Shown: one piece after another, positions 2,026-60,236 of the stretch
Layout: each line of letters opens with the position of its first letter
How positions within the stretch are numbered: position 1 is the stretch's first letter
Origin: Adineta ricciae
Taxonomy: Eukaryota; Rotifera; Eurotatoria; Adinetida; Adinetidae
Direction: 5' to 3'
Length of the DNA stretch: 64,000 nt
Assembly: GCA_905250025.1 (NCBI GenBank)
Contig: CAJNOJ010000124.1
Coordinates: forward strand, 186,001 to 250,000
Position numbers and translations under genes: made by a program
Notes under the pieces: model-generated
Seen by the model: the letters and a program-made list of their open reading frames with translations, nothing else
Database searches by the model: none
Told to the model about the DNA's origin: nothing

Positions 2026-3489
2026 TCAGTTAGGTGACGTTAAGAGTGAGAAAGTAACTTTAATACTGGAATATTGGTCATAACTACCAACTGTTCTTTC
2101 GTAAATCATTTCATATCTGATACCGTCGATACAGGTCTCATTGATAAGTTGTTGAAAATACCAAGTCGTCTTATTTGTTTCTTCTGCCCGAAATCTTCGA
2201 TCAATCATCTCATCACAGCACCATGTTCTTTCCACCATGGATAAATCTTCAGTAGTTAGGATGCGATTGAGTACACTAACTGAATGGCCCATAGTTAACA
2301 GCACGCTTTGATTCGTGTCATGATTAACATAAAAATATCTTTTTAGAAAGGATTTGTCGAAGGTAGAATAGGCAGTATTTAAACGATGCACTGCTTCTTC
2401 TGTGTTGTTCATGTTTAAAGTAGGATACGGTTTCCAATGACTAGACATATGGTGCAAAGTGACTAACCCATCCATTCCACTTTCCAGCATACCAAGCATG
2501 TTTCCATAGTGATCCATCTGGTGGAAATGGTGTTCTCTCGTTAGATTCACTCTTAACTCTTCAACAACACATTTACCGATCATTTCATCCCCACCGAATG
2601 AAGCGTAGAATCGTTCACATTGTTGGCGATGCTGTACATATGATAACGCTAACGACCGACTGAAAACAATACCCGCACCACCATAGCCGAAGAACGCGCC
2701 ATGTCGTTTAAGTATAAACTTTTTAGTAGACGTGTTTCCCAAATAGATTGCGTCTGAAGAGTTATATTGGCGAAGAACATGCAGAAGATTGTTCACAAAC
2801 CAAATTGTATCATCATCGCCCACAGCAAACCATTGTATCTTCCTCCGTTCATTCTGATGACTATCACTTTCCTGTTTTTTCCAACCGTTATAGAATAATT
2901 CAAAGTATCTTTGTTCATAACGTTCCACTGGCGATGTTTGTATCTCACAAAGAACTCCTTGTTGAAGAAGAAAGTCGGTGATATTGGTATAGTTCATAAA
3001 ATCCGTTTCGTGGAAAACGATAAGACAATTGATACCGGGACGAGTCGCCCAAAACTTTAGAAAATGTATCGTTGTGAGAATCCGTCTTGCATGTGTAGTA
3101 ATAAGGAACAAGATTTCTTCGAGCATGTATTCATGAATACTGTAATTCGTCGCTGATATGGATGATATTTCTCTATATTGACCAGAAAATTGTGTGAGAT
3201 GTTTGTTATTTCTATGTAATATTTGATTATCGAAGATGTTTTGAATCTCAACAAATACAGCTTCCGGTGTAGTGTGATTCCGTGTTGCTATGGTGCTCTT
3301 GTTGGGAAAATGATTTTGCATCAGCTTAGTATCATTAACTGGAATTTGAAAATAGAATACAGTACAGATAATAGTACCAAGTATCATTAGCCATCGTGAT
3401 CTCCATCGTTTTCTTCCACTGGACTGAATAAAAAAGAAAGTCAGTCGATTGATACAACGCCTCACTAAAAAAAAATTTCGCCATTCCAT
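2026..3489 (-). CDS. Type II membrane glycosyltransferase, GT31/DUF604-like, paralogue 1 (left copy)
   Basis: This is an intronless 487-aa gene on the minus strand, starting at ATG 3487-3489. It has a short basic cytoplasmic tail, one signal-anchor segment near residues 32-50 (LMILGTIICTVFYFQI) and a lumenal catalytic domain. The acidic metal/nucleotide-sugar motif is GDDDTIWF. It is followed by YGGAGIVFSRSLA, GGDEMIGKCV and FHQMDHYGN, the order found in fringe-like and plant/fungal DUF604 beta-1,3-glycosyltransferases. The likely role is Golgi glycan extension with an unknown acceptor. A paralogue lies at 7864-9336, on the same strand with two unrelated genes between. One glycine of the EELGVNLTR motif is arginine here. 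Absence of introns and the DUF604 likeness hint at horizontal origin, but this is not proven. Confidence 0.85.
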   Translation of the reverse strand: MEWRNFFLVRRCINRLTFFFIQSSGRKRWRSRWLMILGTIICTVFYFQIPVNDTKLMQNHFPNKSTIATRNHTTPEAVFVEIQNIFDNQILHRNNKHLTQFSGQYREISSISATNYSIHEYMLEEILFLITTHARRILTTIHFLKFWATRPGINCLIVFHETDFMNYTNITDFLLQQGVLCEIQTSPVERYEQRYFELFYNGWKKQESDSHQNERRKIQWFAVGDDDTIWFVNNLLHVLRQYNSSDAIYLGNTSTKKFILKRHGAFFGYGGAGIVFSRSLALSYVQHRQQCERFYASFGGDEMIGKCVVEELRVNLTREHHFHQMDHYGNMLGMLESGMDGLVTLHHMSSHWKPYPTLNMNNTEEAVHRLNTAYSTFDKSFLKRYFYVNHDTNQSVLLTMGHSVSVLNRILTTEDLSMVERTWCCDEMIDRRFRAEETNKTTWYFQQLINETCIDGIRYEMIYERTVGSYDQYSSIKVTFSLLTSPN

Positions 3490-4154: not shown

Positions 4155-5456
4155 TCATTGTGAGGGACAGAAACCTGAACCTTTGTGAGCGCAGACACGT
4201 AATGCAATATCGTCGATGACGAGGTCATTGCCGGTACCGCCACGTGTATTTGAAAGCATTAAGAGATTTACTGAGCTTTCCGTTGCGACGAACGAAAAAC
4301 CGTACTTCTTCCAAGCCAATGTACTGGTTTCAGGAACATTGCCTGAATTCAATTGAGCAAGTAATTCATTTCCGTGGACGGAACGAACTTCGAAGAGAAC
4401 GTTTGGTTCGATTTTGCCTGATTTTTTACAGAGATTAGCCAAGTAAACCGAAAATTCGTAACGCAGACCGACGCATAAATTGTCGACTCTACCATTGTAA
4501 AATTGGCCTGGTTCAAAGTTTGCATTGACTAAATACATGTATCCACCTTCGTCTCCTGTATGATCTTTTGCGCCAGTATGCCAAGCATCATTATGGTTGT
4601 AAATGGAGTTGAGCAAAGCAAAGTAACCATCATGTATGGCTGGTTCTCGTCGTTGTTTGTATGTTGTAGTAAAATTGAATTCAGAAGGTAAGGCAGAAGA
4701 AAACTGACGTGAACCCTTTCCAAATGTGACTTTTAGAATTGGTTCTCCAACAAATTCGTCGTTATCAAAGCATAAACCAGTTGATTCTAAAACGAAAGGA
4801 AGACAAGATAGAAAATACAGATATCGAACTCAACGGTGTTCAATACGTACGAACTTCACATAATGAACCACTAAAGCCTTCTGGACAATGACAAACATTG
4901 TCGCCAATGCAACTGCCGCCATTTTCACATCCAGGATTGCAAACAGCTAAAATCATAGAAATACAGTTGAGAAAAGCTACGTCTTTTCAATGCAAAATTA
5001 AATCAATCATGTCAGAGTTTAGTATAGAAATTAAAAATCTCCAACGTTAATACAAATAGGTGCCGATTCATCAAGCATGTTTGTGAGCGTATTTTGAATA
5101 GGGCTATCAAACTTACGATATGCTTGTGTTGTTTCCTCCACGATTGCTCCAAGTAATTCTTCAGGTGTTGTCGACATCGGTTCTTCAGTTGTCATCATTG
5201 GTTCTTCAGTAGTTGTTGTCATTGGTTCTTCAGTTGTCGTTATTGGTTCTTCAGTAGTTGTTGTCATTGATTCTTCAGTTGTCGTTATTGGTTCTTCAGT
5301 AGTTGTCGTCATGGATTCTTCAGTTGTCGTCATGGGTTCTTCAGTGGTTGACGTCATTGGTTCTTCAGTAGTTGTCGTCATGGGTTCTTCAGTTGTCGTC
5401 ATTGGTTCCTCGGTCGTTGTTGTTGTTCCTTGAGTAGTTGTTGTAACCGATGGCAT
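4155..5456 (-). CDS. Secreted mucin-like protein with EGF and MAM-like C-terminal domain (left copy)
   Basis: Three exons join in phase: 5117-5456 (Thr-rich repeats), 4851-4946 (EGF) and 4155-4786 (C-terminal domain), with strong GTAAGT and GTACGT donors. The repeat exon encodes about 11 units of the TTTEEPM type, expected to be O-glycosylated. The EGF exon has six cysteines ending [10 protein letters not shown]. The last exon encodes a beta-sandwich-like domain with [17 protein letters not shown], resembling MAM/carbohydrate-binding modules. The first ATG lies directly before the repeats, without a signal peptide. An acceptor-like CAG near 5477 would let the exon join in phase with the Cys-rich exon of the neighbouring His-rich gene (5935-6523). 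The two may therefore be one secreted protein. This joining is inference only. Confidence 0.7.
5157..5440 (-). repeat. Minisatellite coding Thr-Thr-Glu-Glu-Pro repeats (left copy)
   Basis: Tandem 21- and 24-bp units encode TTEEPM-type heptads and octads; about 11 units are present. The matching array in the other copy has about 20. Imperfect units (EESM, EEPI) alternate here, which suggests an independent unit history in each copy. Confidence 0.85.
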
Positions 5457-5837: not shown

Positions 5838-6523
5838 TTAAATAAAGGTGAGGGACTGAACTGTAAAGTAAAAAGTATGATGTTAACGCAAAGTTATAAA
5901 CGTATATATATATTATGCAATTTACAGTACTTACGAGCACATCTGTTATCCTTATTGCAGAATCCGCTTGCACAATCACGATCAGCCCGACACTTCTTCT
6001 TATCAGCACATGGTGGACAATGCTTACCTCCACAGTCGATATCAGTCTCTTGTTTGCTAATTTTTCCATTCATGCACTTTTTATCTAAAAATGGAAAATA
6101 CGTGGAATTGCCATTCTTGCTCTCGATTATAACTGTATCTACAACAAAAGATATAGTAAAATTAATCTTCTTACTTTTCTTTTTTGGTGGTTCTTTTTCT
6201 TTAGAATGATCATGTTCTCCAGAGTGTGAATGGTCGTGCTCTTCCGAATGGGAATGTTCACGTTCCTTGGAATGATCGTGCTCTTTCGAATGGGAATGTT
6301 CACGTTCCTTGGAGTGCTCGTGCTCTTCCGAATGGGAATGTCCACGTTCCTTCGAATGGTCGTGCTCTTCCGAATGGGAATGTCCACGTTCCTTCGAATG
6401 ATCGTGCTCTTCCGAATGGGAATGTCCACGTTCCTTCGAATGGTCATGCTCTTCGGAATGGGAATGTTCTTTGGAATTTGATTCATCTTTTGATGATACT
6501 TTGTCGTGTTTAGGTCTTGCCAT
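5838..6523 (-). CDS. His-rich repeat protein with Cys-rich C-terminal motif (left copy)
   Basis: The minus-strand coding exon 5935-6523 is followed by a short last exon, 5838-5860, giving a terminus ALQSLTFI. The first in-frame ATG is 6521-6523 (MARPKHDK). A strongly hydrophobic stretch (CVGILLLTICCWQC) is in frame just upstream to about 6600 in both copies but has no ATG, so the true start is unresolved. The body is about 6.5 units of a 14-residue repeat, HSHSEEHDHSKERG, likely extended and possibly able to bind metal ions. The C-terminal motif DIDCGGKHCPPC...CASGFC...C resembles a Cys-rich module common in bacterial and eukaryotic surface proteins. Function is unknown. It may be spliced to the EGF/mucin gene instead of ending at 5838. 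Confidence 0.6.
6198..6475 (-). repeat. 42-bp minisatellite coding His-rich repeats (left copy)
   Basis: Tandem 42-bp units each encode HSHSEEHDHSKERG or a close variant; about 6.5 units. The other copy has 16 units at 27175-27846. Confidence 0.9.
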
Positions 6524-7863: not shown

Positions 7864-9336
7864 TCACTCTTTGACTGTTACTTTTATAGTTGAATATAGA
7901 TCATTCTGACGCTTTTTACCTTCGTAAATCATTACATATTTGATACCGTCGATGGCGGTCTCATTGATAAGTCGTTGAAAGTACCAAGTCGTCTTGTTTG
8001 TTTCTTCTGCCCGAAATCTTCGATCCATCATCTCATCACAACACCAGGTTTGTTCAACTAATGATAAATCTTCACCAGTCAAGATGCGATTGAATATACT
8101 GATTGAATAACCTAGAGTTAACAGCACGCTTTGATTCATCTTACGATTGATGTAAAGATATCTTTTTAGAAAGGATTTGTCGAAGGTAGAATAGGCAATA
8201 TTGAAACGGCGCATCGTCTCACTCACCAGATCAATATGAACGTCAGAAAATGGTCTCCAACTTTTGAATACATGATGCAAAGTAACCAACCCATCCATTC
8301 CACTTTCCAGCATACCAAGCATATTTCCTAAATGATCCATTTGATGGAAATGATGGTCTCGTGTTAGATTCACTCCTAACTCTTCAACAACACATTTACC
8401 GATCATTTCATCCCCACCATATGTGTAGTAAAATCGTTCATATTGTTGGCGATGCTGTACATATGATAACGCTAACGACCGACTGAAAACAATACCCGCA
8501 CCACCGTAGGCATAGTAAGCTCCATGCTTTCTGATTTGCAATCTCTTAGTTGAAATATTTCCTAAATAAATTTTATCGGATGCGTTGTATTGACGAAGAA
8601 CATGCAGAAGATTGTTCACAAACCAAATTGTATCATCATCGCCCACAGCAAACCATTGTATCTTCCTCCGTTCATTCTGATGACTATCACTTTCCTGTTT
8701 TTTCCAACCGTTATAGAATAATTCAAAGTATCTTTGTTCATAACGTTCCACTGGCGATGTTTGTATCTCACAAAGAACTCCTTGTTGAAGAAGAAAGTCG
8801 GTGATATTGGTATAGTTCATAAAATCCGTTTCGTGGAAAACGATAAGACAATTGATACCGGGACGAGTCGCCCAAAACTTTACATAATCAATTGTCGTAA
8901 AAATACGTTTTGTATGAGTAGTAAGAATGAATATGATGTCTTCGAGTGAATACTCGTTGGTACTATTTTCATTTAATGATGTCGATGATATCTCTCTATA
9001 TTGACCAGAAAATTGTGTGAGAAGTTTGTTATTTCTATGTAATATTTGATTATCGAATATGCGTTGAATCTCTACACGAAATGTCGTTCTTATACTTTTA
9101 TTCAATGCCAAAGTAACATTTGCATCATGAACAGCATGTGTTATTGGTCTAATGCCGATATTCCAGCGAAGAAAATGAAGCAGAAAAAATAGCATAATAC
9201 CAGTTATGATAATGCATTTGATCCATCGTAATTTCAAAATTCTATTGATTGACCATTTTGTTTTATGTGATTGACTGACGAAGGTAATAAAACTATTGAA
9301 ACAACGTTTCACTAAAAATAATTTTCGCCATTTCAT
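7864..9336 (-). CDS. Type II membrane glycosyltransferase, GT31/DUF604-like, paralogue 2 (left copy)
   Basis: This intronless 490-aa gene starts at ATG 9334-9336 and has the same domain plan as the gene at 2026-3489. A signal anchor near residues 37-55 (CIIITGIMLFFLLHFL) precedes a lumenal domain with GDDDTIWF, YGGAGIVFSRSLA, GGDEMIGKCV and FHQMDHLGN. The catalytic core is nearly identical to paralogue 1 of the same copy, while the N-terminus (about 100 residues) and the acceptor-side segments differ. A 289-bp stretch (8594-8882) is identical by eye to 2771-3059. This fits recent gene conversion between the paralogues. The likely role is Golgi glycosylation; acceptor unknown. Confidence 0.85.
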   Translation of the reverse strand: MKWRKLFLVKRCFNSFITFVSQSHKTKWSINRILKLRWIKCIIITGIMLFFLLHFLRWNIGIRPITHAVHDANVTLALNKSIRTTFRVEIQRIFDNQILHRNNKLLTQFSGQYREISSTSLNENSTNEYSLEDIIFILTTHTKRIFTTIDYVKFWATRPGINCLIVFHETDFMNYTNITDFLLQQGVLCEIQTSPVERYEQRYFELFYNGWKKQESDSHQNERRKIQWFAVGDDDTIWFVNNLLHVLRQYNASDKIYLGNISTKRLQIRKHGAYYAYGGAGIVFSRSLALSYVQHRQQYERFYYTYGGDEMIGKCVVEELGVNLTRDHHFHQMDHLGNMLGMLESGMDGLVTLHHVFKSWRPFSDVHIDLVSETMRRFNIAYSTFDKSFLKRYLYINRKMNQSVLLTLGYSISIFNRILTGEDLSLVEQTWCCDEMMDRRFRAEETNKTTWYFQRLINETAIDGIKYVMIYEGKKRQNDLYSTIKVTVKE

Positions 9337-15066: not shown

Positions 15067-15067
15067 N
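15067..15067. other. Assembly junction (single N) between diverged copies
   Basis: The sequence matching 36532 in the other copy stops exactly at this N. On the far side a glutamate receptor gene starts in mid-exon. The block to its left (1-15066) reappears at 20735-36532. Confidence 0.95.
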
Positions 15068-19287: not shown

Positions 19288-22200
19288 ATGTACATCATCG
19301 GTGTTGATGTAGGTGGAACAAATACAGGTAAAACTTTGTTGTACTTTGATGAAATTTGTATTTTCGGAATTTTTGTCTATCAGATGCGGTTCTCATACGA
19401 ATCGAGTCGGGAATTTGTGAGTGAATGCGGTATATTTTGTTTGCGTTGTTAAACCTTTCTTTCTTACACATTAATATAGCGCCAGTAGTCGTAGCCACGA
19501 ATAAAACAACGACGACTGCCGATGTATTTTCTGGCATGCTTCATTCTGTTCGACAAGTCGTTCAAGATGTTGAAGTAACTGCGGTGATGGCTGGCACGAC
19601 TCACTTCATCAATGCTCTTATTCAACGACGAAATCTTGCAAAAGTATGCATCTTGCGTCTCTGTGGACCAGCTACGCATTCCCTTCGGCCGATGTCCAAC
19701 TGGCCAGATGATTTGAGGCAACAGGTAAAACACGATACATATTCAGTTTTTCTCCGAGACAAAAGATATCACATAGGTTGATGGTATAACAGCACTCGTT
19801 TCTGGTGGATATTTCTATGATGGATCGCCCATTGCCTCTTTGGATGAAGAGGAGATTCGTGGGATTGTTCGACAAGCTCTTGCAATGAATATTCAGTCGT
19901 TTTGTGTTTGTGGTGTGTTTTCTCCATGTCGATCCGATCAAGAGAAACGTGTTGCGGAAATCATCCGTGAAGAATCGCCGGATGTGTACATTACAGTTTC
20001 GCACGAAATCGCTGGTCTCGGTTTGATTGAACGCGAAAATGTATCGATCCTCAATGCGTGTCTTCGTCCATTAGCACTTCGTACAATGAAAGCATTAAAA
20101 CAGGCACTCCCAAATGGTTTGCCATTATTTCTCACCCAAAATAACGGCACTCTATTATCATTGGAACAGTGCGCTCGTTTACCTGTTTTCACTTTTGCAA
20201 GTGGATGAACGAGTGCGATGATTGGTGCAGCACACCTAACAGGTATACAGAATGGCATTGTTATTGATATAGGAGGCACATCAACGGATATCGGAGTAAT
20301 TATTAATGGTCGCCCAAGACAAACACACGCAGTTAGTTTCATATTCAGTGTTCATTTCGTATTTAAACTGATTTTCGTTTTTTTCGTCATCAGAAAGTTT
20401 ATCTAGTCGACGAAATTCGTGTAAATGTGAGCATGCCTGACGTAGTTTCGTTACCCTTGGGAGGTGGTACAGTCATCCATATTGATGAAGATAACGATAC
20501 GATTTGTGTTGGACCTGATAGTGTAGGATATGAATTACATACAAAAGGATTGGCTTTTGGCGGTCAAACGATGACTACTGCTGACATAGCGCTAGCCGCT
20601 GGATTGATTACGAAAGTGAGTTCATTCGTCTCCTTCGATATAAATACTATGAAGTTTAATTATAGATAGGCCATTCAACTGTAGAAATACCAGCATCAGT
20701 AATTCAAAAAGTACTTGATCACATCAAAAGTACAATCAATCGAGGAATTGACCGAATGAAAACGAATCAAGAACCAGTACCTGTCATTCTTTGCGGCGGA
20801 GGATCAATCCTTATTGATATCAAAGAATCATTTGCTGACGTCACAGAGGTATCGGTTTTACTCTGCTTTTCGTTTTCAAGACCTTCTAAATAGCATCTAT
20901 TCTGCTTTAGATTATTCGTCCACCTCATTTTGCAGTGTGTAACGCTGTCGGCGCTGCTCTCTGTTCAGTGAGTGGTACCATTGAGTCAATTGTCGATCTT
21001 TTACCTTCGTCCATGGATGGAGGATTTCAACGTAAATTTGAACTTGATCGATTGACGCAGGCTGTTCAACAACAATGTGTACAGAATGGTGCGCGTCCAA
21101 ATACAATTCGATTAGTCGATATAGAACAAGTTCCTTTGACATATTATCCAGGTGGATACAAACATCGAGTTCTGCTTAATGCTATTGGCGAGCTCGATCT
21201 GATGAAATTAAAAGAGCAACATCAAGAAACTACAGAGCATTTTTCGTTAACAGATATGTCACAAGATTTACCGAAAACCCGCCAGTCACTGAAGTATGCA
21301 GTGATAGCAAATAAACAACCGAGATTTGATGAAGACGGTGCATGGATCATTGATTCGACTGATATCGAGTACATTGCGTATGGTGTCGGCATATTAGGTT
21401 GCGGTGGTGGTGGCGAATCATATCATACGAAATTATCGTGTTTAGAAATGTTAAAGACGACTAATGGTAAGATGCGTGTCATACCGCCAGCTGTACTTCA
21501 TCCATCGTCTGATTTGGCAGCCGTTATTGGCTTTATGGGTGCACCAACAGTCTCACACGAACAGTTGCCGAGTGGTAATGAATGTTTATTGGCTATCGAT
21601 ACTATTGAAAAGTACCTTTCGAAGAAAATAACAGCTGTATTTAGCGCCGAGATGGGCGGCGCAAACGGCCTCCGGAATTTATTAGTTGGAGCGGTAAAAA
21701 ATATACCCTGTGTCGATTGTGACAATATGGGACGTGCATTTCCAAGACTTGATCAGAAACTACCATTTATTCTTGGCCAGAGCGTCACACCTGCGTGCAT
21801 GTGTGATGTTCGTGGACGGACAGTCTTATATACAGAAGAGATGATTAAAGACGCGCATGAATTGGAGGATGTTTTAAGAAAAGAATGCATTAAGATGGGC
21901 CTAAGAGGAGGATTATGTATGCCACCCTTAACTGGCGAACAAGTTCAGAAATATTCAATACACAATAGTCTGTCTCGTGCATGGTTCTTGGGTAAGTTCG
22001 TGATTACTTAATTACCGTATAAAAATGAATAAAACTAGGTCGAGCAAAGTTCAGTCACCAAAGAGACGTGATCAGAGCAGTGGTAAGAGCAGGCAATGGT
22101 CGTATTCTAATATCGGATGGTAAAGTAACAAATGTCGAACGATACACTAGCTCTGGCTTTGCTCGAGGCCATGTTGAGATCGAAACGACTGCAGGAAAAC

Positions 22201-22761: not shown

Positions 22762-24219
22762 TCAATCAGGTGATCTTGAAAGTGAGAAGGCAACTTTAAT
22801 ACTGGAATATTGATCATTACTACCAACTGTTCTTTCGTAAATCATTTCATATCTGATACCGTCGATACAAGTCTCATTGATAAGTTGTTGGAAATACCAG
22901 GTCGTCTTGTTTGTTTCTTCTGGCCGAAAGCTTCGATCAATCATCTCATCACAGCACCATGTTCTTTCCACCATGGATAAATCTTCGGTAGTTAGAATGC
23001 GATTGACCACACTGACTGAATGGCCCATAGTTAACAGCACGCTTTGATTCGTGTCATGATTAACGTAAAAATATCTTTTTAGAAAGGATTTGTCGAAGAT
23101 AGAATAGGCAGTATTTAAACGACGCACTGCTTCTTCTGTATTGTTCATGTTTAAAATAGGATACGGTTTCCAGTGACTAGACATGTGGTGCAAAGTGACT
23201 AACCCATTCACTCCACTTTCCAGCATACCAAGCATGTTTCCATAGTGATCCATCTGATGGAAATGGTGTTCTCTCGTTAGATTCACTCCTAACTCTTCAA
23301 CAACACATTTACCAATCATTTCATCCCCGCCGAATGAAGCGTAGAATCGGTCACATTGTTGGCGATGTTGCACGTATGATAATGCCAACGATCGACTCAA
23401 AAGGATGCCTGCACCACCATAGCCGAAGAACGCGCCATGTCGTTTAAGTATAAACTTTTTAGTAGACGTGTTTCCCAAATAGATTGCGTCTGACGAGTTG
23501 TATTGACGAAGAACATGCAGAAGATTGTTCACAAACCAAATTGTATCATCATCTCCCACGGCGAACCATTGTATTCGTCTTCGTTCATTCTGATGACTAT
23601 CGCTTTCCTGTTTCTTCCAACCATCATAGAATAATTCAAAATATCTTTGTTCATAACGTTCCACCGGCGACGTTTGTATCTCACAAAGAACTCCTTGTTG
23701 AAGAAGAAAGTCGGTGATATTGGTATAGTTCATAAAATCCTTTTCGTGGAAAACGATAAGACAATTAATACCGGGACGAGTCGCCCAAAACTTTAGAAAA
23801 TGTATCGTCGTGAGAATCCGTCTCGCATGCGTAGTAATAAGGAACAAGATTTCTTCGAGCATGTATTCGTGAGTACTGTAATTCGTTGCTGATATGGATG
23901 ATATTTCTCTGTATTGACCAGAAAATTGTGTGAGAAGTTTGTTATTTCTATGTGATATTTGATTATCGAAGATGTTCTGAATCTCAACAATTACAGCTCC
24001 CGGTGCAGTATGATTCCGTGTTGTTATGTTGCTCTTGTTAAGAAAATTACTTTGCATCAGCTTAGCATCATTAACTAGGATTTGAAAATAGAATATAATA
24101 CAGATAATAGTACCAAGTACCATTAGCCATCGTGATCTCCATCGTTTTCTTGCGCTGGGTTGAGTAAAAAAGAAAGTCAGTCGGTTGCTACAACGCCTCA
24201 GTAGAAAAATTTTCGCCAT
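22762..24219 (-). CDS. Type II membrane glycosyltransferase, paralogue 1 (right copy)
   Basis: This intronless gene of 485 aa is the counterpart of 2026-3489, with the same signal anchor, GDDDTIWF, YGGAGILLSRSLA, GGDEMIGKCV and FHQMDHYGN. The start differs: the ATG homologous to the left copy (24223-24225) runs into a stop after eight codons because one base is missing in the A/T run that follows. An overlapping ATG at 24217-24219 gives MAKIFLLRR and restores the conserved frame. In the core, 23507-23795 shares copy-specific variants with paralogue 2 of this copy (29968-30256). Role as for the left copy. Confidence 0.85.
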   Translation of the reverse strand: MAKIFLLRRCSNRLTFFFTQPSARKRWRSRWLMVLGTIICIIFYFQILVNDAKLMQSNFLNKSNITTRNHTAPGAVIVEIQNIFDNQISHRNNKLLTQFSGQYREISSISATNYSTHEYMLEEILFLITTHARRILTTIHFLKFWATRPGINCLIVFHEKDFMNYTNITDFLLQQGVLCEIQTSPVERYEQRYFELFYDGWKKQESDSHQNERRRIQWFAVGDDDTIWFVNNLLHVLRQYNSSDAIYLGNTSTKKFILKRHGAFFGYGGAGILLSRSLALSYVQHRQQCDRFYASFGGDEMIGKCVVEELGVNLTREHHFHQMDHYGNMLGMLESGVNGLVTLHHMSSHWKPYPILNMNNTEEAVRRLNTAYSIFDKSFLKRYFYVNHDTNQSVLLTMGHSVSVVNRILTTEDLSMVERTWCCDEMIDRSFRPEETNKTTWYFQQLINETCIDGIRYEMIYERTVGSNDQYSSIKVAFSLSRSPD

Positions 24220-24891: not shown

Positions 24892-26401
24892 TCATTGTGA
24901 GGGGCAGAAACCGGAACCTTTGTGAGCGCAGACACGTAATGCAACATCATCGATGACGATGTCATTGCCGCTACCGCCACGTGCATTTGAAATCATTAAG
25001 AGATTTACTGAGCTTTTCGTTGCGACGAACGAAAAACCGTACTTCTTCCAAGCCAATGTACTGGTTTCAGGAACATTGCCTGAATTCAATTGAGCAAGTA
25101 ATTCATTTCCATCGACGGAACGAACTTCAAAGAGAACGTTTGGTTCGATTTTGCATGATTTTTTACAGAGATTAGCCAAGTAAACCGAAAATTCGTAACG
25201 CAGACCGACGCATAAATTGTCGACTCTGCCATTGTAAAATTGGCCTGGCTCAAAGTTTGCATTGACTAAATACATGTATCCACCTTCGTCTCCTGTATGA
25301 TCTTTTGCGCCAGTATGCCAAGCATCATTATGATTGTAAATGGAGTTGAGCAAAGCAAAGTGACCATCATGTATGGCTGGTTCTCGTCGTTGTTTATATG
25401 TTGTAGTAAAATTGAATTCAGATGGTAAGGCAGAAGAAAACTGACGCGAACCCTTTCCAAATGTGACTTTTAGAATTGGTTCTCCAACAAATTCGTCGTT
25501 ATCAAAGCATAAACCAGTTGATTCTAAAACGAAAGGAAGACAAGATAGAAAATACAGATATCGAACGCAAAGATCTTCAATACGTACGAACTTCACATAG
25601 TGAACCACTAAAGCCTTCTGGACAACTACAAACATTGTCGCCGATGCAACTGCCGCCATTTTTACATACAGTATTGCAAACAGCTAAAATCATAGAAATA
25701 CAGTTGAGAAAAGCTACGTCTTTTCAATACAAAATTAAATCAATTATGTCAGAGTTTAGTGTACCAATTAAAAACCTCCAACGTTAATAAAAAATAGTCG
25801 TCGATTCATCAAGCATGCTTGTGAACGTATTTTGAATAGGGCTATCAAACTTACGATATACTTGTGTTGTTTCCTCCACGATCGCTGCAAGTAATTCTTC
25901 AGGTGTTGTCGTCATTGGTTCTTCGGTTGTCATCACTGGCTCTTCAGTTGTTGTTGACATTGGTTCTTCAGTTGTCGTCACTGGTTCTTCGGTTGTTGTC
26001 GTCATTGGTTCCTCAGTTGTTGTTGACATTGGTTCTTCGGTTGTTGTCGTCATTGGTTCTTCGGTCGTTGTCGACATTGGTTCTTCGGTTGTGGTCACTG
26101 GTTCTTCAGTTGTTGTCGACATTGGTTCTTCAGTTGTTGTTGACATTGGTTCTTCGGTTGTGGTCATTGGTTCTTCGGTTGTTGTCGACATTGGTTCTTC
26201 GGTTGTGGTCATTGGTTCTTCAGTTGTTGTCGACATTGGTTCTTCGGTTGTTGTCACTGGTTCTTCAGTTGTTGTTGACATTGGTTCTTCGGTTGTCGTC
26301 ATCGGCTCTTCGGTCGTTGTCGTCATTGGTTCTTCAGTTGTTGTTGACATTGGTTCTTCGGTCGTTGTTGTTCCTTGAGTAGTTGTTGTAACCGATGGCA
26401 T
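24892..26401 (-). CDS. Secreted mucin-like protein with EGF and MAM-like domain (right copy)
   Basis: Exons 25855-26401 (Thr-rich repeats), 25588-25683 (EGF) and 24892-25523 (C-terminal domain) join in the same phases as in the left copy. The repeat array is longer, about 20 TTEEP units against 11. The EGF exon keeps six cysteines, although its first spacer differs ([11 protein letters not shown]). The C-terminal domain ends [17 protein letters not shown]...GFCPSQ. As in the left copy the ATG before the repeats lacks a signal peptide, and joining to the His-rich gene upstream is possible. Confidence 0.7.
25905..26385 (-). repeat. Minisatellite coding TTEEP repeats (right copy)
   Basis: About 20 alternating 21/24-bp units encode TTTEEPM and STTTEEPM/V. 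The higher-order alternation (seven- then eight-residue units) is more regular than in the left copy. Antisense frames (25864-26382, 26091-26378) are open only because of the repeat. Confidence 0.85.
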
Positions 26402-26782: not shown

Positions 26783-27895
26783 TTAAATAAAGGTGAGGAA
26801 CTGAACTGTAAAGTAAAAAGCATGATATTAACGTAAAGTTATAAACGTATTTATTTATATATATATTATACCAATTACAGTACTTACGAGCACATCTGTT
26901 ATCCTTATTGCAGAATCCGCTTGCACAATCACGATCAGCCCGACACTTCTTCTTATCAGCACATGGTGGACAACGCTTACCTCCACAATCGATATCAGTC
27001 TCTTGTTTGCTAATTTTTCCATTCATGCACTTTTTATCTAAAAATGGAAAATACGTGGAATTCTCAAGTCTTCACATCTAAAATTGTCATTCTTGCTCTC
27101 GATTATCACCGTATCTACAGCAAAAGACATAGTAAAATTAGTCTTCTTACTTTTCTTTTTTGGTGGTTCTTTCTCTTTAGAATGGTCGTGTTCTTCGGAA
27201 TGGGAATGTTCGCGTTCCTTGGAGTGATCGTGCTCTTCAGAATGAGAATGTCCACGTTCCTTGGAGTGGTCGTGTTCTTCGGAATGGGAATGTCCACGTT
27301 CCTTGGAATGGTCGTGTTCTTCGGAATGAGAATGTTCACGTTCCTTGGAGTGGTCGTGTTCTTCGGAATGAGAATGTTCACGTTCCTTGGAGTGGTCGTG
27401 TTCTTCGGAATGAGAATGTCCACGTTCCTTGGAGTGGTCGTGTTCTTCGGAAGGGGAATGTCCACGTTCCTTGGAGTGGTCGTGTTCTTCGGAATGAGAA
27501 TGTTCACGTTCCTTGGAGTGGTCGTGTTCTTCGGAATGAGAATGTCCACGTTCCTTGGAGTGGTCGTGTTCTTCGGAATGGGAATGTCCACGTTCCTTGG
27601 AGTGGTCGTGTTCTTCGGAATGAGAATGTCCACGTTCCTTGGAGTGGTCGTGTTCTTCGGAATGAGAATGTTCACGTTCCTTGGAGTGGTCGTGTTCTTC
27701 GGAATGAGAATGTCCACGTTCCTTGGAGTGGTCGTGTTCTTCGGAATGAGAATGTCCACGTTCCTTGGAGTGGTCGTGTTCTTCGGAATGGGAATGTCCA
27801 CGTTCCTTGGAATGGTCGTACTCTTCGGAATGAGAATGTTCTTTGGAATTTGACTCATCTTTTGATGATACTTTGTCGTGTTTAGGTCTTGCCAT
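26783..27895 (-). CDS. His-rich repeat protein with Cys-rich motif (right copy)
   Basis: Coding segments are 27076-27895, 26888-27037 and 26783-26805. Compared with the left copy there is a 23-bp insertion at about 27063-27085, which would shift the frame. A 38-bp GT-AG segment (27038-27075) restores it if spliced, giving NFRYKKCMNGK where the left copy reads straight through. The repeat array has 16 units of HSHSEEHDHSKERG against about 6.5. The Cys-rich end CGGKRCPPC...CASGFC...C is kept. As in the left copy, a hydrophobic stretch upstream (to about 27980) is in frame but has no ATG. Function unknown; a metal-binding or structural surface protein is a guess. Confidence 0.55.
27175..27846 (-). 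repeat. 42-bp minisatellite coding His-rich repeats, 16 units (right copy)
   Basis: This is exactly 672 bp, 16 tandem units of 42 bp. Units are nearly identical; the last position alternates between Gly and Glu codons, and one unit has HSPS. The recent homogenisation contrasts with the shorter, more diverged left array. Confidence 0.92.
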
Positions 27896-28459
27896 ACATT
27901 GCCAACAGCAAATCGTCAACAGAAGTATTCCGACACAACTTAAACATACGAAAGAAAAGCGTTGTGCATTATTCAAGTTCAATGAAACTGAGTGATCTCT
28001 GGTCTCTGCTTTAGCTGGTGAACTGTAGACATATCTCAAATTATAACGAACATTGATAAAGATCAATGCAATGCTTTTATGTAAAACATTCCTTTCGATA
28101 TATGATGATCTGGATGAAAGTTTACACTCTCGCTCATTTTCGGTACGCCTAGAATATTAAAAAGTTATTACTATAATGTCAAACGCATCGTTGGAAAGTT
28201 GAATTGAACGAAACAGAAACAGTCGAAATGATTACCACTTGATCAGCTAAATAGAATGAAGTCAGGAACCATACAAAAGCAACGTTTGAAAGCAGTAGAT
28301 AGCTCTATTCTACAGAAGCGTAGAACTAACTACAAAGAAAGTGACTTACCTGATTGTTGTTTGGAGAGGTGATTCTCGCAACAAAAAAATGATATACGGC
28401 CTTTACTTCTTCGGTGATATTTATACTGGCAGGTTATTCTACATTTTCGTAGATTTATT

Positions 28460-29237: not shown

Positions 29238-30710
29238 TCACTCTTTGATTGTTACTTTTATAGTTGAGTAAAGATCACTCTGACGCTTTTTACCTTCGTA
29301 AATCATTACATATTTGACACCGTCGATACAGGTCTCATTGATAAGTCGTTGAAAGTACCAAGTCGTCTTATTTCTTTCTGCTGTCCGAAATCTTCGATCC
29401 ATCATCTCATCACAACACCAGGTTTGTTCAACGAATGATAAATCTTCACCAGTCAAGATGCGATTGAATATACTGATTGAATAACCTAGAGTTAACAGCA
29501 CGCTTTGATTCATCTCACGATTGATGTAAAGATATCTTTTCAGAAAGGATTTGTCGAAGGTAGAATAGGCAATATTGAAACGGCGCATTGTCTCACTCAC
29601 CAGATCAATCTGAACGTCAGAAAATGGTCTCCAACTTTTGAATACATGATGCAAAGTAACCAAACCATCCATTCCACTTTCCATCAAACCAAGCATATTT
29701 CCTAAATGATCCATCTGATGGAAATGATGATCTCTCGTTAGATTCACTCCTAACTCTTCAACAACACATTTACCAATCATTTCATCCCCACCATATGTGT
29801 AGTAAAATCGTTCACATTGTTGGCGATGCTGTACATATGATAACGCTAGCGACCGACTGAAAACAATACCTGCACCACCGTAGGCATAGTAAGCACCATG
29901 TTTTTTGATTTGCAATCTCTTAGTTGAAATATTTCCTAAATATATTTTATCGGTTGAGTTATGTTGACGAAGAACATGCAGAAGATTGTTCACAAACCAA
30001 ATTGTATCATCATCGCCCACAGCAAACCATTGTATTCGTCTTCGTTCATTCTGATGACTATCGCTTTCCTGTTTCTTCCAACCATCATAGAATAATTCAA
30101 AATATCTTTGTTCGAAACGCTCCACTGGCGATGTTTGTATCTCACAAAGAACTCCTTGTTGAAGAAGAAAGTCGGTGATATTGGTATAGTTCATAAAATC
30201 CTTTTCGTGGAAAACAATAAGACAATTAATACCGGGATGAGTCGCCCAAAACTTTACATAATCAATTGTCGTAAAAATACGTTTTGTATGAGTAGTAAGA
30301 ATAAATATGATATCTTCGAGTGAATACTCGTTGGTAATATTTTCATTTAATGATGTCGATGATATCTCTCTGTATTGACCAGAAAATTGTGTGAGAAGTT
30401 TGTTATTTCTGTGTGATATTTGATTATCGAATATGCGTTGAATCTCTACATGAAATGTCGTTCTTATGCTTTTATTCAATACCAAAGTAACACTTGCATC
30501 ATGAACAGCATGTGTCATTGATCGAATACCAATAATCCGGCGACGAAAATGAAGCAGGAAAAATAGCATAATACCAGTTATGATAATACATTTGATCCAT
30601 CGTAATTTCAAAATCCGATTGATTAGCCATTTTGTTTTATATGATTGACTGGCAAAGGTAATAGAACCATTGAAACAACGTTTTACTAAAAATAATTTCT
30701 GCCATTTCAT
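29238..30710 (-). CDS. Type II membrane glycosyltransferase, paralogue 2 (right copy)
   Basis: This is an intronless gene of 490 aa, counterpart of 7864-9336, with a signal anchor (CIIITGIMLFFLLHF), GDDDTIWF, YGGAGIVFSRSLA, GGDEMIGKCV and FHQMDHLGN. Its catalytic core carries the right-copy variants (for example ERRRIQWF and LFYDGWKKQ) also present in paralogue 1 at 22762-24219. Both left-copy genes have ERRKIQWF and LFYNGWKKQ instead. Confidence 0.85.
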   Translation of the reverse strand: MKWQKLFLVKRCFNGSITFASQSYKTKWLINRILKLRWIKCIIITGIMLFFLLHFRRRIIGIRSMTHAVHDASVTLVLNKSIRTTFHVEIQRIFDNQISHRNNKLLTQFSGQYREISSTSLNENITNEYSLEDIIFILTTHTKRIFTTIDYVKFWATHPGINCLIVFHEKDFMNYTNITDFLLQQGVLCEIQTSPVERFEQRYFELFYDGWKKQESDSHQNERRRIQWFAVGDDDTIWFVNNLLHVLRQHNSTDKIYLGNISTKRLQIKKHGAYYAYGGAGIVFSRSLALSYVQHRQQCERFYYTYGGDEMIGKCVVEELGVNLTRDHHFHQMDHLGNMLGLMESGMDGLVTLHHVFKSWRPFSDVQIDLVSETMRRFNIAYSTFDKSFLKRYLYINREMNQSVLLTLGYSISIFNRILTGEDLSFVEQTWCCDEMMDRRFRTAERNKTTWYFQRLINETCIDGVKYVMIYEGKKRQSDLYSTIKVTIKE

Positions 30711-35254: not shown

Positions 35255-38200
35255 TTAATTTGTTGTCAAGCGATCTGCACTATTCAATATTGATAACGTT
35301 TTCTCCCGGAAGTAGAGTGCTTTGGATTCATCGCCCATGTGTAGATATACTAAACGGATGTTGTTGTAGCAAGAAGCTAAATCAGGATGATTTTTTGGAA
35401 GATTTTGCTGACATATTTCCAGATCTTTCTCGAAAAATACTAGAGCTTGAGAATGTTCACCCATAGCATGATACACCGAGCCTATATTGTTGTACGAAGT
35501 AGCTAAGTTCGGGTGGTTAGCTGGAAGAGATTTTTCACAAATACTCACAGCTTTCGTGTAGAAGGAAAGAGCTTGACAATAGTTTTTCGTGCTTTGATGC
35601 ACTGAAGCGATGTTGTTGTAACAAGTAGCCAAACTGTGTTGATTCATAGGGTTCGTATTTTCTTGAATATCTAGAGCTTTTTCGAGATAGGAGAGCGCTT
35701 TAGAGTACTCCGCTGTCTGGTCGTAGGCCAAACCGATATTGTTGTACGACATGGCTAAATCAGGATGATTTGAAGGAAGAGTTTTCTGTTGAATCAGAAG
35801 AGCTTTCTCATAGAATTCAAGTGCTTCAGAATTTCGATTCATATTGGCGTAAACTAAACCCATGTTATTGTACGAGATGGCGATATCGGGATGATCTTCA
35901 GGAAGAGCTTGCCGGCGAATATCAAGAGCTTTTTCATAGAAGAAGAGCGCTTGTGAGTAGTTTCCCATGTTTTTGTGCACCACCCCGACATTATTGTATG
36001 AAGTAGCTAGATTCAGACGACTCTCGGGTAGATTGGCTTCAAAAATAGTCAAAGTCTTTTCATAACAGGAAAGTGCTCGAGAATGATCATTTATATCACT
36101 ATACACGGAAGCAAGATTGTTGTAGGAGACAGCTACGTCGAGATGATCTGAACGAAAACAGACGAGAGCTGCTTCAAGAGCTCTTTCAAGATACACGAGT
36201 GCTTGGGTATACTCTCCTGTATTTTTATAGAGTAATCCAATATTGCTCCACAGGCAGACCAAGTTTGGATGATGATGATAATCAGGCAGACTTTCTTGAT
36301 AAAGCAAAAGTGCTTTTTCGTAATACATGAGCGCCTGTGCATAATGACCCATAAGATCGTCTACCGAAGCGAGATTATTGTAACTAACGGCTAGATCAAA
36401 ACGATCGACATAAGGGAGTTTTTGTTTAATGTCAAGGGCTTTTTCGAACAAGGAACGTGCTTGGGAATACGAGCCCATGTTCTTGTGTACCGAAGCAATG
36501 TTGTTGTAAGAAACAGCTACGTCGAGATGACATTCCGAGTATATCTCTAGTCGCGTATGAAGAGCCTTGTCATAGTACGAGAGTGCCTGTGTGTAATCTC
36601 CCTTTTTTTCATGTACCGAGCCTATATTATTGTACGATGCTGCTATATCAGGATGTTTTTCGGAAAAATGCTTTTGTCGAATTTTGAGAGCTTCTTCAAA
36701 ATAGAAAAGTGCTTTAGAATATTCACCCATGTCACAATGTAGCGAGCCAACGTTGTTGTAATATGTAGCTAAGTCAGGATGATTGGCATCAAGGAGCTTC
36801 TGTTGAATTGCGAGAACTTTCTCAAAATAGAAAAGTGCTTCGGAATATTTACCAATCTTTTCATACATTAAGCCAATGTTGTTAAATGAAGTTATCGTAT
36901 CAGGATGATGTTCAGGAAGATTCTTTTGTTGAACAGCAAGAGCTTGTTCATAGTAGGAGAGTGCACGCAAGTAGTCACCTTTTTTATCATAGACGGAACC
37001 AATATTATTGTAGGATGTAGCGATATCAGGATGTTCTTCGGGATAATTTTTTTTTTGAACATCGAGCGCTTTCTCAAAGCAGGCAAGTGCTTTGGAATAC
37101 TCGTTCATATTACAATACACGAAGCCAATATTATTGTAAGAAGTTGCGAAATGAGAATGATCTGCAGGAAGAGACTTCTGTTGAATATCGAAGACTTTCT
37201 CGCAGCAAGCGAGTCCTTTAGTATGATCGGCCATCATATCATAGATCAAAGCAATATTGCTGTAAAAAGTAGCTACCATCGGATGATTTGCTAGTGAACG
37301 TTTCTGTTGAATGCCGAGAGCTTGTTTATAATACGAAAGTGCTTGAGGATAATCTCCCATCGAATGATGTACTGAACCCAAGTTATTGTACGAAATGGCT
37401 ATTTCAGGATGATCCGAAGGAAGAATTTGTAGTTGGATATCGAGTGCTTTTTTATGGTAGGAAAGCGCCTTCGAGTAATCACCCGTGTGCCTGTAGACCA
37501 TACCGATATGGTTGTATGTATGCGTTGGAAATAATTTATCTGACGTGCAAGATTTGCCATGCTCTTCAAGAGCTTGTTGATAATATTGAACTGCTTCTTC
37601 ATGGTTTCTTTGCTTTGCTTTAATTTTTCCTAAGGCGTGATAGTATTTACATGGGCTTTGATCTTCTAAGTTTTGATCAAGTAGAGTAAGAAATAAATTC
37701 TCCGCTGTTTCCAGCTTACCAAGATAGATCAACAGGTCGCCCATTCGTGTCCATCCAACTTCTTCATCTTCTTGTTCAATTTGCGTAGTTAAGACACGAA
37801 GTTCTGGATCATTGTCATTAGTTAAACTGAGAAACACCTTGAACACACGATCATTGACTTTGTCTTTTTCTATTTTATTTATGCGAAACACGGCATGCAT
37901 TGAAAACAGCACTTCATCTTCATCTTCGATAGCGCTAATATTCCTGATCCGAGCAAAAGACGTCGTGTCTAATTTAGGATCAATGGTCATGATGAATAAT
38001 ATTCCCATAACCTCTAAGTCTTGCGTTGCACTATCAGCGTACATATAAGCTGGTGCTTCATCTTGACTGGTTGAAATAAAACTATTAAAAGCAATCAATC
38101 CTTTTTGACTTTTTCCCAGCTGATGAAAGTCATCTATTGAGAGTCTTTGTCCTCGATAAACATCAAATGGTTTGTCACCATAGCTGCACGCTTGTTCTTT

Positions 38201-38989
38201 GTATAATTCTTCGATTTGTCGATGAAGATCGTGAATAAAGAAACTCATGTAGACAATAACATCTGATTCTAGAAGTCTAAGGGCTCGATTTAACATTGGA
38301 TAGATAAAACAGTCTTTTGTGTACCACCATATTGCCTTATCAGGTTGATAAGCTTGACTGAATTCATCGACGACTGCTAATGTCCTCAGATTATCCTGAA
38401 ATTGATCTCGGCAGAATTCGATTAGCATTGAACTACTTTGATTGTCATATTTCGTGTTTAGTATTGCATTTTTGAATATTTGAGTATACATATAACTCGG
38501 CTGTAATCGATTCAGATCAACTTGTTCATTCGTTTCGTTCATTCGCGCAAAACTGATCGGAGTAGTATCTTGATCGCAGCGCTTAGCAGCTGGATGAATT
38601 ATTTCAATCAGAGGTTGAATCGTGGGATGAAGTCCTTTAACTTTTGGCCATTCCGAAGCCCATTGTCCATACCACGGTTGATCCTCATCGCAGATATAGA
38701 TCGTATTTATTGCTTTCATTGAGTGAATTTGTGGAACTAATGTTTGCGCGAAGGCAGCGGATGTAATAACGAATATTTTTTCCGATTCGATTTCTTTTAG
38801 AAATTTCAAAGAATCTTCGATCGTGTTGAATAGGGTCACAGAATTAATTACATTACGCAGCTGCTCGATGTTACTCTGAATGTTATTGTTCGATAAATCA
38901 GCATTAGCATCGAGCCAAACAGCCAAATAGTTCTGCACAATTCGTCTTCGAATTGTTCGATATTGTGGTACTTTTTTCAAATTCGCCAT
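35255..38989 (-). CDS. ADP-ribosyltransferase (ART) domain fused to about 19 TPR repeats
   Basis: This is a single-exon gene of 1244 aa starting at ATG 38987-38989. Residues about 1-180 form an alpha/beta region of unknown type (KIFVITSAAF, IYICDED). Residues about 180-410 hold an arginine-specific ART fold with the R-S-E triad: VYRGQRL, then FNSFISTSQDEAPAYMYA, then EDEDEVLF giving the E-x-E. The rest is a solenoid of 42-residue KLC/nephrocystin-type TPRs. By family knowledge the ART domain transfers ADP-ribose from NAD to proteins, and the TPR solenoid would select targets. No signal peptide is seen, so it is probably cytosolic. ART-TPR fusions form a large family in bdelloids. The target is unknown. 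Confidence 0.85.
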   Translation of the reverse strand: MANLKKVPQYRTIRRRIVQNYLAVWLDANADLSNNNIQSNIEQLRNVINSVTLFNTIEDSLKFLKEIESEKIFVITSAAFAQTLVPQIHSMKAINTIYICDEDQPWYGQWASEWPKVKGLHPTIQPLIEIIHPAAKRCDQDTTPISFARMNETNEQVDLNRLQPSYMYTQIFKNAILNTKYDNQSSSMLIEFCRDQFQDNLRTLAVVDEFSQAYQPDKAIWWYTKDCFIYPMLNRALRLLESDVIVYMSFFIHDLHRQIEELYKEQACSYGDKPFDVYRGQRLSIDDFHQLGKSQKGLIAFNSFISTSQDEAPAYMYADSATQDLEVMGILFIMTIDPKLDTTSFARIRNISAIEDEDEVLFSMHAVFRINKIEKDKVNDRVFKVFLSLTNDNDPELRVLTTQIEQEDEEVGWTRMGDLLIYLGKLETAENLFLTLLDQNLEDQSPCKYYHALGKIKAKQRNHEEAVQYYQQALEEHGKSCTSDKLFPTHTYNHIGMVYRHTGDYSKALSYHKKALDIQLQILPSDHPEIAISYNNLGSVHHSMGDYPQALSYYKQALGIQQKRSLANHPMVATFYSNIALIYDMMADHTKGLACCEKVFDIQQKSLPADHSHFATSYNNIGFVYCNMNEYSKALACFEKALDVQKKNYPEEHPDIATSYNNIGSVYDKKGDYLRALSYYEQALAVQQKNLPEHHPDTITSFNNIGLMYEKIGKYSEALFYFEKVLAIQQKLLDANHPDLATYYNNVGSLHCDMGEYSKALFYFEEALKIRQKHFSEKHPDIAASYNNIGSVHEKKGDYTQALSYYDKALHTRLEIYSECHLDVAVSYNNIASVHKNMGSYSQARSLFEKALDIKQKLPYVDRFDLAVSYNNLASVDDLMGHYAQALMYYEKALLLYQESLPDYHHHPNLVCLWSNIGLLYKNTGEYTQALVYLERALEAALVCFRSDHLDVAVSYNNLASVYSDINDHSRALSCYEKTLTIFEANLPESRLNLATSYNNVGVVHKNMGNYSQALFFYEKALDIRRQALPEDHPDIAISYNNMGLVYANMNRNSEALEFYEKALLIQQKTLPSNHPDLAMSYNNIGLAYDQTAEYSKALSYLEKALDIQENTNPMNQHSLATCYNNIASVHQSTKNYCQALSFYTKAVSICEKSLPANHPNLATSYNNIGSVYHAMGEHSQALVFFEKDLEICQQNLPKNHPDLASCYNNIRLVYLHMGDESKALYFREKTLSILNSADRLTTN

Positions 38990-39560
38990 CTTCTTCAATA
39001 AGTATACAGTGCAGTGAAGAACACGAGTCGATGTTTACTAATCTGACTATGTGTGTGTTATCATTATTTTATATATGAATAGCATGCTTGAGTAGATTCG
39101 TTTGTTCTATTCTTCCGTCAAGGTGAGTCAGGAAGAGAGAAGACAACTATGAATCATGACTATTTAGCTTTTAATCGAAAGTACGATTATTGAAGAAGCC
39201 AAGTTCTTCAAATCGTGCGTGCACGGGTGCACATAGGAATGAGTCACTGTCTCATCAGCATACTCCTCAGTCTTTGTTTTTTATGTACGAGAATATTCCA
39301 TTCGTCAAGATATCTTCGGCACCGGATATGCCTTTTTCTTTTTCTCTATATCTTCATGAGAGTTATATCAGTATGGATCGTTTATATTCGCCGACTTTTC
39401 CTTCTAGTTCTGTACACATGCATATTCTTAGATAAAGAAAGAGGAAAAATAAACATGTGCTTCAGAACGTCGTAGTAACGACAAATAGGTTGCGCACAAA
39501 AACTTCCAGAGAGAACATAGTTCTTTTCCTCTGTGAGTGAAATTTTATTTCGGATAAATC
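38990..39560. promoter_or_regulatory. Divergent intergenic region between ART-TPR (-) and coiled-coil gene (+)
   Basis: About 570 bp separate two oppositely oriented starts, so both promoters must lie here. No clear TATA or other motif stands out beyond an AT-rich patch near 39065. Open frames at 39190-39475 are not supported. Confidence 0.4.
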
Positions 39561-59073: not shown

Positions 59074-60236
59074 TCAAAATTTAGTGTTGTGACTGGCAAT
59101 TGAACTGTTCGAAGAACTACGAGGAATTGAATAAAGAGCAGGAGTTCGGAGAATATCACGCTTAGTACTGGGTTGAACGGTACGACGTATGGAATAAATA
59201 CATTTCTTGACTAATCCAGAGAAATGACACTTGACGACTACCATGTATTGGCACATAAATAATAATAAGGCCAGAATACTTATACTTCCGAATATGATAA
59301 ATACACCAGCCATTGTTCCAATCGACAGCTGATCAACTAGTATCGACGATGTATTCGAACAATAACTGGTTTGAAACCATTTCGTTTTTAAACTATCTAA
59401 TACACCTGATTCTCGCAATGATAGGATATTTACGTCTAAAACTTGTTGATAAATCCAGTTCTTTTGAGTAACAATTCCAAACTGACTGTAATCAGCAGGC
59501 GCGCCAACTAATGTTAAATTGCAGTAAACATTCCCAACGAAATATTCTGACACGCCACTATCCATCAAAGCTACGTCGATTACATTCGTCAAGAGTTTCT
59601 GAAAGGTTTCACCTTTTGTGCGTAATGGATAAAAATCTCGACTACCACCGGATACTTCTCGTAAATAAAAGGTTTCAATAGCCGTATTCGTACGAATACC
59701 TATCCGTCCAGGTGCAGCTTTTCCATTTTTCAAGTCCTCAATACCAGAAATTATGTTATTTGTCTTAGCTACTGTTAAATCAGACGTCAGATTCGCTTGA
59801 TATTGCGCTACTAGAACAAAACTGAGAATGTATATAGCAGCAGTTACTAATCGACTCATCAGCGTCCTGATACGATAATCCCAATTATATCCAACAAGAG
59901 TTCCAAACGCGTAATACATACTTAATTCAAATTGATGAATGAGAGATTTACGTTTCATTGTTCGATTGCGCCGACATTCAAACAAAAATATCAAAATAGC
60001 CGACCAGACAATAACGCATATGATGATTATCCAAAGATGACATGAAAAGGGTCGTAGGAAAGACCAATAATTGACTGGTTCGATGGGCGTAATACGTGTG
60101 ATAATTCGTAAGGAATTATCAAAAATTCCGGCGGAGAAAGTAACTAATTTTCGTCGATCGGCATAGATTGTCACATCACCAACAACCATATCATAATCGC
60201 CATTTGCAACGGCATTAATAAGTGCATTGTAACTCT
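59074..60236 (-). CDS. Ionotropic glutamate receptor, 3' part (first version, cut by assembly gap)
   Basis: The frame starts at the N (60237) and ends at 59074. It covers the end of S1 (VVGDVTIYADRR), M1 (LWIIIICVIVWSAILIFLF), the pore loop YYAFGTLVGYNWDYR, M3 (YILSFVLVAQYQANLTSDLT), S2 and M4 (MAGVFIIFGSISILALLLF). The pore sequence contains VGY as in potassium-channel filters. The fuller version is 62510-64000. Confidence 0.88.

Follow-up and report, generated by a model that had tools for sequence, protein, structure and literature searches.

Probable interlocus gene conversion between linked glycosyltransferase paralogues in two haplotypes of Adineta ricciae

We analysed a 64,000-nucleotide window of the bdelloid rotifer Adineta ricciae (positions 186,001 to 250,000 of contig CAJNOJ010000124.1, here C124; assembly GCA_905250025.1), and window coordinates are used throughout unless C124 is named. 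The window holds a left and a right copy of the same region, and each copy carries two Fringe/DUF604-type predicted glycosyltransferase genes. We refer to the left-copy paralogues 1 and 2 as L1 and L2, and to their right-copy alleles as R1 and R2. All four genes have intact frames of 485-490 codons, and all four predicted proteins match PF04646 (85.9-100.4 bits) and PF02434 (63.9-67.2 bits) above the gathering score. The paralogues are closely linked, with start-to-start distances of ~5.8 kb between L1 and L2 and 6.5 kb between R1 and R2, and two tandem arrays lie between them. The 42-bp repeat of one array falls inside open frames and differs in unit number between the alleles (5.7 vs 15.6); the right-copy frame that holds it (27038-28066) is without a Pfam match.

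Several other features accompany these genes. An S-Me-THD family gene (PF06032/PF20906) lies at 201-1277 and 20935-22011, of which the left copy was scanned; this family is mainly microbial, and a horizontal origin of the gene is therefore possible. Ionotropic glutamate receptor sequence is present at 59287-60042 and 62723-63478 and is close in sequence to AvGluR1 of Adineta vaga; among the solved structures listed, AvGluR1 was the best match (E 3e-77 vs 1e-29 for the next). Genome-wide, we counted 73 Lig_chan matches, with exons counted separately. TGTGGG arrays are also present in the genome, and the reversed sequence is the same repeat and hence provides no control.

Table 1. Features of the locus, in window coordinates unless C124 is given.
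Feature	Position	Strand	Remark
L1, glycosyltransferase paralogue 1, left contig	2026..3489	-	intact 487-aa ORF, Fringe/DUF604
L2, glycosyltransferase paralogue 2, left contig	7864..9336	-	intact 490-aa ORF
R1, right-contig allele of L1	22762..24219	-	intact 485-aa ORF
R2, right-contig allele of L2	29238..30710	-	intact 490-aa ORF
Main conversion tract in L1	2771..3059		identical to L2
Main conversion tract in L2	8594..8882		identical to L1
Corresponding tract in R1	23507..23795		10 differences vs R2, 17 vs left
Corresponding tract in R2	29968..30256		10 differences vs R1, 17 vs left
Second tract in L1	2619..2682		L1 = L2, 64/64
Inferred donor of second tract, in L2	8442..8505		identical to L1 tract
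Array of 45-bp tandem repeats, L1-L2 interval	5157..5441		6.3 units
Right counterpart of 45-bp array	25895-26368		10.3 units
Array of 42-bp tandem repeats, L1-L2 interval	6228..6467		5.7 units
Right counterpart of 42-bp array	27183-27839		15.6 units
Single N where two allelic contigs meet	15067		C124:180345-201066 restarts at 201068
Further single Ns with restarting head-to-tail copy	54657, 60237; C124:170431, C124:258290		join like 15067

Comparison of the four genes revealed a stretch of ~290 bp in the middle of the gene, covering the GDDDTIWF motif, in which the paralogues of one copy resemble each other. The initial annotation had reported L1 and L2 as identical by eye over this main tract, and this proved exact (289/289 bases, with mismatches at 2770 and 3060). 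R1 and R2 are also unusually alike here, with 10 differences over 289 bases vs 21/60 and 18/60 in the adjoining 60 bp on either side. At least seven variants had been said to be shared by the right tracts and absent from both left genes; we counted 12, and the peptides given as examples were correct (ERRRIQWF and FYDGW in R1 and R2, ERRKIQWF and FYNGW in L1 and L2). Five of the 12 shared right variants fall within 7 bp, so they represent fewer than 12 independent events. This cluster of five left/right differences (2839-2845 and its right counterparts) is probably one event. All 12 informative sites in the tract group same-copy paralogues and none groups alleles. Across the coding core, 152 of 170 informative sites were allele-type, 16 were same-copy paralogue-type (12 of them in the main tract) and 2 were cross-copy paralogue-type. 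Outside the tract, 152 of 158 informative sites group alleles, in agreement with the claim that the flanks group the opposite way. Paralogues are thus closer than alleles within a bounded tract and the reverse holds outside it, the pattern by which ectopic conversion is recognised.

The clustering of these sites was supported by several tests. A run of 12 consecutive haplotype-type sites did not arise in any of 20,000 shuffles. A mosaic test of each gene between its allele and its same-copy paralogue gave p = 5e-5 in all four genes, the lowest value that 20,000 permutations allow. The same test against the other-copy paralogue gave p values of 0.066-0.60 in three of four genes, and the one low value, 5e-5 for L1 with R2, traces to the second tract described below; conversion across haplotypes (L1 with R2, L2 with R1) was thus rejected as a candidate. 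In a GENECONV-like run test of the six pairs, L1-L2 and R1-R2 gave the lowest values (0/5000 each). Values for L1-R2 (6/5000) and L1-R1 (22/5000) were low too, as expected if L1 is itself mosaic, and those for L2-R1 and L2-R2 were not low. With both known tracts masked, a search for further tracts in the four genes gave two of eight tests below 0.05 (0.035 and 0.042 uncorrected), neither of which survives correction.

Trees agreed with the site counts. A same-genome homologue search gave 10 matches, namely the four genes themselves and six at 29-45% identity, and four of these homologues served as outgroup; of the other two, L018 was used for polarity and dropped from the trees, and L017 is without a matching ORF over 200 aa. 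The allele tree was rejected in the main tract (AU p 0.00014 under HKY+G and 0.0016 under a codon model), whereas in the flanks (256 codons, without the second tract) each of the four other trees tested fell 312 log units or further short and was rejected. One tree that differs from the best only in the point at which the outgroup attaches to L1=L2 ties with it (likelihood difference under 0.001) and nevertheless received AU values of 0.005 and 0.05, on which we put no weight. The topology therefore switches sharply at the tract borders, which the initial annotation had named as the support to look for.

Of the two tracts, it is the second, shorter one in L1 that provides information on direction. 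In this tract L1 and L2 differ at 0/64 positions, L1 and R2 at 2, L1 and R1 at 11/64, and R1 and R2 at 11/64; on either side, L1 reverts to R1 type. L2 stays R2 type throughout while L1 departs from R1, and R1 keeps the paralogue-1 sequence. In this tract the transfer was non-reciprocal (i.e., the donor is unchanged and the recipient is replaced). Since L1 equals L2, is nearly R2, is unlike R1 and has R1-type flanks, the transfer, as read from the four sequences, ran from L2 to L1 once the haplotypes had separated. That L2 rather than R2 was the donor rests on sites 2674 and 2652, of which 2674 alone is decisive; at 2652 the R1 base is the same as that of L1 and L2. Taking R1-R2 as a proxy for the state of L1 and L2 before this event, the two sequences differed at 11/64 positions inside the tract, 9/60 to its left and 22/60 to its right. 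By the same proxy, no shared run longer than 34 bases lies nearby, and the borders have 17 and 11 shared bases.

We next consider the timing of conversion in the two haplotypes. The initial annotation had placed conversion inside each haplotype after the haplotypes separated. For the left haplotype, as assembled, a date after separation is firm because L1 and L2 differ at 0/289 positions vs 17 between alleles, and because of the second tract. For the right haplotype, the claim holds as likely rather than proven: the right tract was most likely also homogenised after the split, but longer ago than the left. The chief alternative, which we regard as unlikely but as deserving serious weight, is that a single founding conversion preceded the split, that a later conversion affected the left haplotype alone, and that the likeness of R1 and R2 is a relic. 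The borders speak for it, since the two haplotypes share their right border (3059/3060) and have left borders that lie four bases apart (2770/2771 in the left haplotype, 2766/2767 in the right). So do the trees in which R1 and R2 are not sisters, of which one in four was rejected (AU p 0.075 and 0.075 under HKY, 0.067 and 0.009 under the codon model), and the comparison of 12 vs 5 changes, which was non-significant (p 0.14, or p 0.58 if the five-in-7-bp cluster is counted once). Against it, R1 and R2 differ less in the tract than alleles do (10 vs 17; Poisson p 0.049), and two polarised amino-acid sites favour a derived state shared by the right genes. There are three haplotype-type amino-acid sites, two of them informative for polarity. 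At the T/K site (3005), four of five outgroup copies have T; at the K/R site (2839-2841), two of five outgroup copies have K (best-matching, C270) and none has R. The outgroup thus matches the left genes at both sites, and the shared right state therefore looks derived, on a polarity of two sites read from outgroups only ~37% identical in protein. Polarity at silent sites is mixed, with 3031 and 2905 matching the right genes and 2866 the left.

Two further explanations question the left haplotype itself. L1 and L2 could derive from different homologues through a switch of phase between them, which would turn the event into conversion between homologues. The two tandem arrays of unequal copy number between L1 and L2 make this conceivable, and the 45-bp array is a likely place for phase to switch; however, there is no N between L1 and L2 and allelic homology breaks only at the arrays. 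We consider such a switch improbable, and each contig presumably represents one true haplotype. Somewhat more doubtful still is an assembly artefact, in which assembly or polishing carried sequence from one left paralogue over into the other and left 289 bp falsely identical. The exactness of the identity and the demonstrable imperfection of this assembly would suit it. The likeness of R1 and R2, however, does not come from collapse because both carry private variants, and the switch in the second tract is from one sequence to another with differences at 11/64 positions (by the R1/R2 proxy) and only 17 and 11 shared bases at its borders.

The initial annotation had treated the left and right copies as haplotypes, and the layout of the contig bears this out. 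The left copy starts at C124:180345, upstream of the window, and ends at 201066; the right copy starts at 201068, immediately after a single N. We found five single Ns in C124:166001-270000 (104 kb), and after all five a copy of earlier sequence restarts, with 92-96% identity in the block beginning there. The four further Ns have 2.0, 3.4, 4.2 and ~8.7 kb between restarts (units overall ~2 to 21 kb); at the fifth (C124:258290) the copy restarts at the N, but the match covers only ~4.7 of 8.7 kb. Furthermore, the left frame of a TPR-repeat protein is open to the N with no stop, and its right counterpart extends to 1247 aa. This TPR-repeat protein (35255-38998) has an ADP-ribosyltransferase (ART) match at residues 221-383, and its left allele is cut at the contig end. 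One left-copy gene was found at two genomic places at 95-100% and at no third above 72%, counts of this kind being lower bounds, and the tract has four places in the genome. Of the three main blocks, two have ~6% left-right mismatches and the third has ~10%; these values exceed the divergence printed for A. ricciae alleles, median 4.55% and 5.5%, in sources that include PMC5916493.

These observations make it almost certain that left and right represent two alleles, assembled as separate contigs that a scaffolder then placed in head-to-tail order with the single N at 15067 between them. Were the two copies instead a genuine 20.7-kb tandem duplication within a single chromosome, they would likewise lie head to tail on one scaffold, but this is very improbable: an N stands at the copy restart in five of five cases with units of ~2 to 21 kb, the left-right divergence is not far above those allelic values, and we found no further allelic copies in the genome. 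We rejected this candidate on the N positions. The layout resembles heterotype false duplication, for which PMC9516828 lists gaps between copies among the signs. Here, too, allelic copies stand side by side on a scaffold with a gap exactly between them, at five of five Ns; such false duplication differs in accounting for the left/right layout only and not for the conversion tracts. Within the 104 kb of C124 and the 200 kb of contig C50 that were read, single-N joins occur on C124 only; C50:1-200000 starts with a run of 2134 Ns and contains neither a single N nor any repeat reaching 500 bp. Two genes further along C124 are without an allelic copy (next best 73%, a short piece, and 74%), so the assembly is partly collapsed or incomplete.

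Finally, we compared silent sites inside and outside the main tract. L1 and L2 have silent differences at 0/54 sites in the tract vs ~72/175 in the flanks (Fisher p 5e-11), and R1 and R2 at 8/54 vs ~82/176 (Fisher p 2e-5). Allelic silent divergence is no lower in the tract (0.30 and 0.25) than in the flanks (0.22 and 0.12), and R1-R2 dS in the tract is 0.16 vs an allelic dS of 0.25-0.30. Strong constraint on the catalytic region, which might keep the paralogues alike where the tract spans the GDDDTIWF motif, is therefore scarcely credible as the cause, and purifying selection is ruled out because silent sites are homogenised too and agree with the tract pattern.

Together, these data make it probable that two allelic contigs, each carrying an old gene pair, were homogenised by interlocus conversion, recently in the left haplotype and likely after the split in the right. 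The initial annotation had named this process, and site classes, the mosaic test, trees and silent sites all support it. The most likely mechanism is that a break in one duplicate was repaired non-reciprocally from the neighbouring duplicate (i.e., gene conversion), which would leave a copied stretch of ~290 bp. On this reading, the left haplotype underwent a recent conversion after the haplotypes diverged, together with the ~60-bp patch from L2 to L1. Nearly identical borders are unexpected for two unrelated events and hint at a founding conversion older than the split, which may have created an island of near-identity in which later conversions were favoured. More tentatively, and as a possibility that we would not lean on, the tract may be a conversion island that renews itself: linked paralogues that were already strongly diverged would have undergone a founding transfer over the catalytic motif, after which each haplotype re-homogenised the same 290-bp patch independently. 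The second tract would then represent conversion at ~20% difference via matching stretches a few tens of bases long, in line with expectation if mismatch-repair rejection is weak.

The locus is a clear case of a known process, ectopic conversion between linked duplicates, and not a new kind of system. As in other tandem or linked duplicates, the main tract is short and sharply bordered, same-haplotype paralogues are closer than alleles, silent sites are included and one tract has a clear direction. It differs in that one tract is only ~64 bp long and, by the right-haplotype proxy, lies between sequences that were ~17% apart within it and 15-37% apart over the next 60 bp on either side. The initial annotation had considered the pattern notable for a lineage long held to be asexual; asexuality is not at stake here, as conversion between linked paralogues can arise from mitotic break repair and needs no sex. 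For bdelloid rotifers, PMC5916493 and PMC6264785 discuss conversion in which former alleles are the partners; that process likewise homogenises non-reciprocally without known meiosis but differs in that the donor here is a linked paralogue and not an allele. Among the matches listed from the open-access literature, titles and the beginnings of abstracts mention no paralogue conversion in bdelloids. PMC6264785 proposes that conversion between divergent sequences is made possible in bdelloids by losses in genes for mismatch repair and recombination, a proposal that the second tract would fit.

The head-to-tail copies on C124 are almost certainly alleles, and a naive gene count there would double. 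If confirmed by reads, the tracts would provide a clean and relatively dated case in which a linked duplicate, not an allele, served as repair template, between sequences too different for conversion to be expected under normal mismatch repair. Such a case, once confirmed, would bear on how genes are renewed in an animal without known meiosis.
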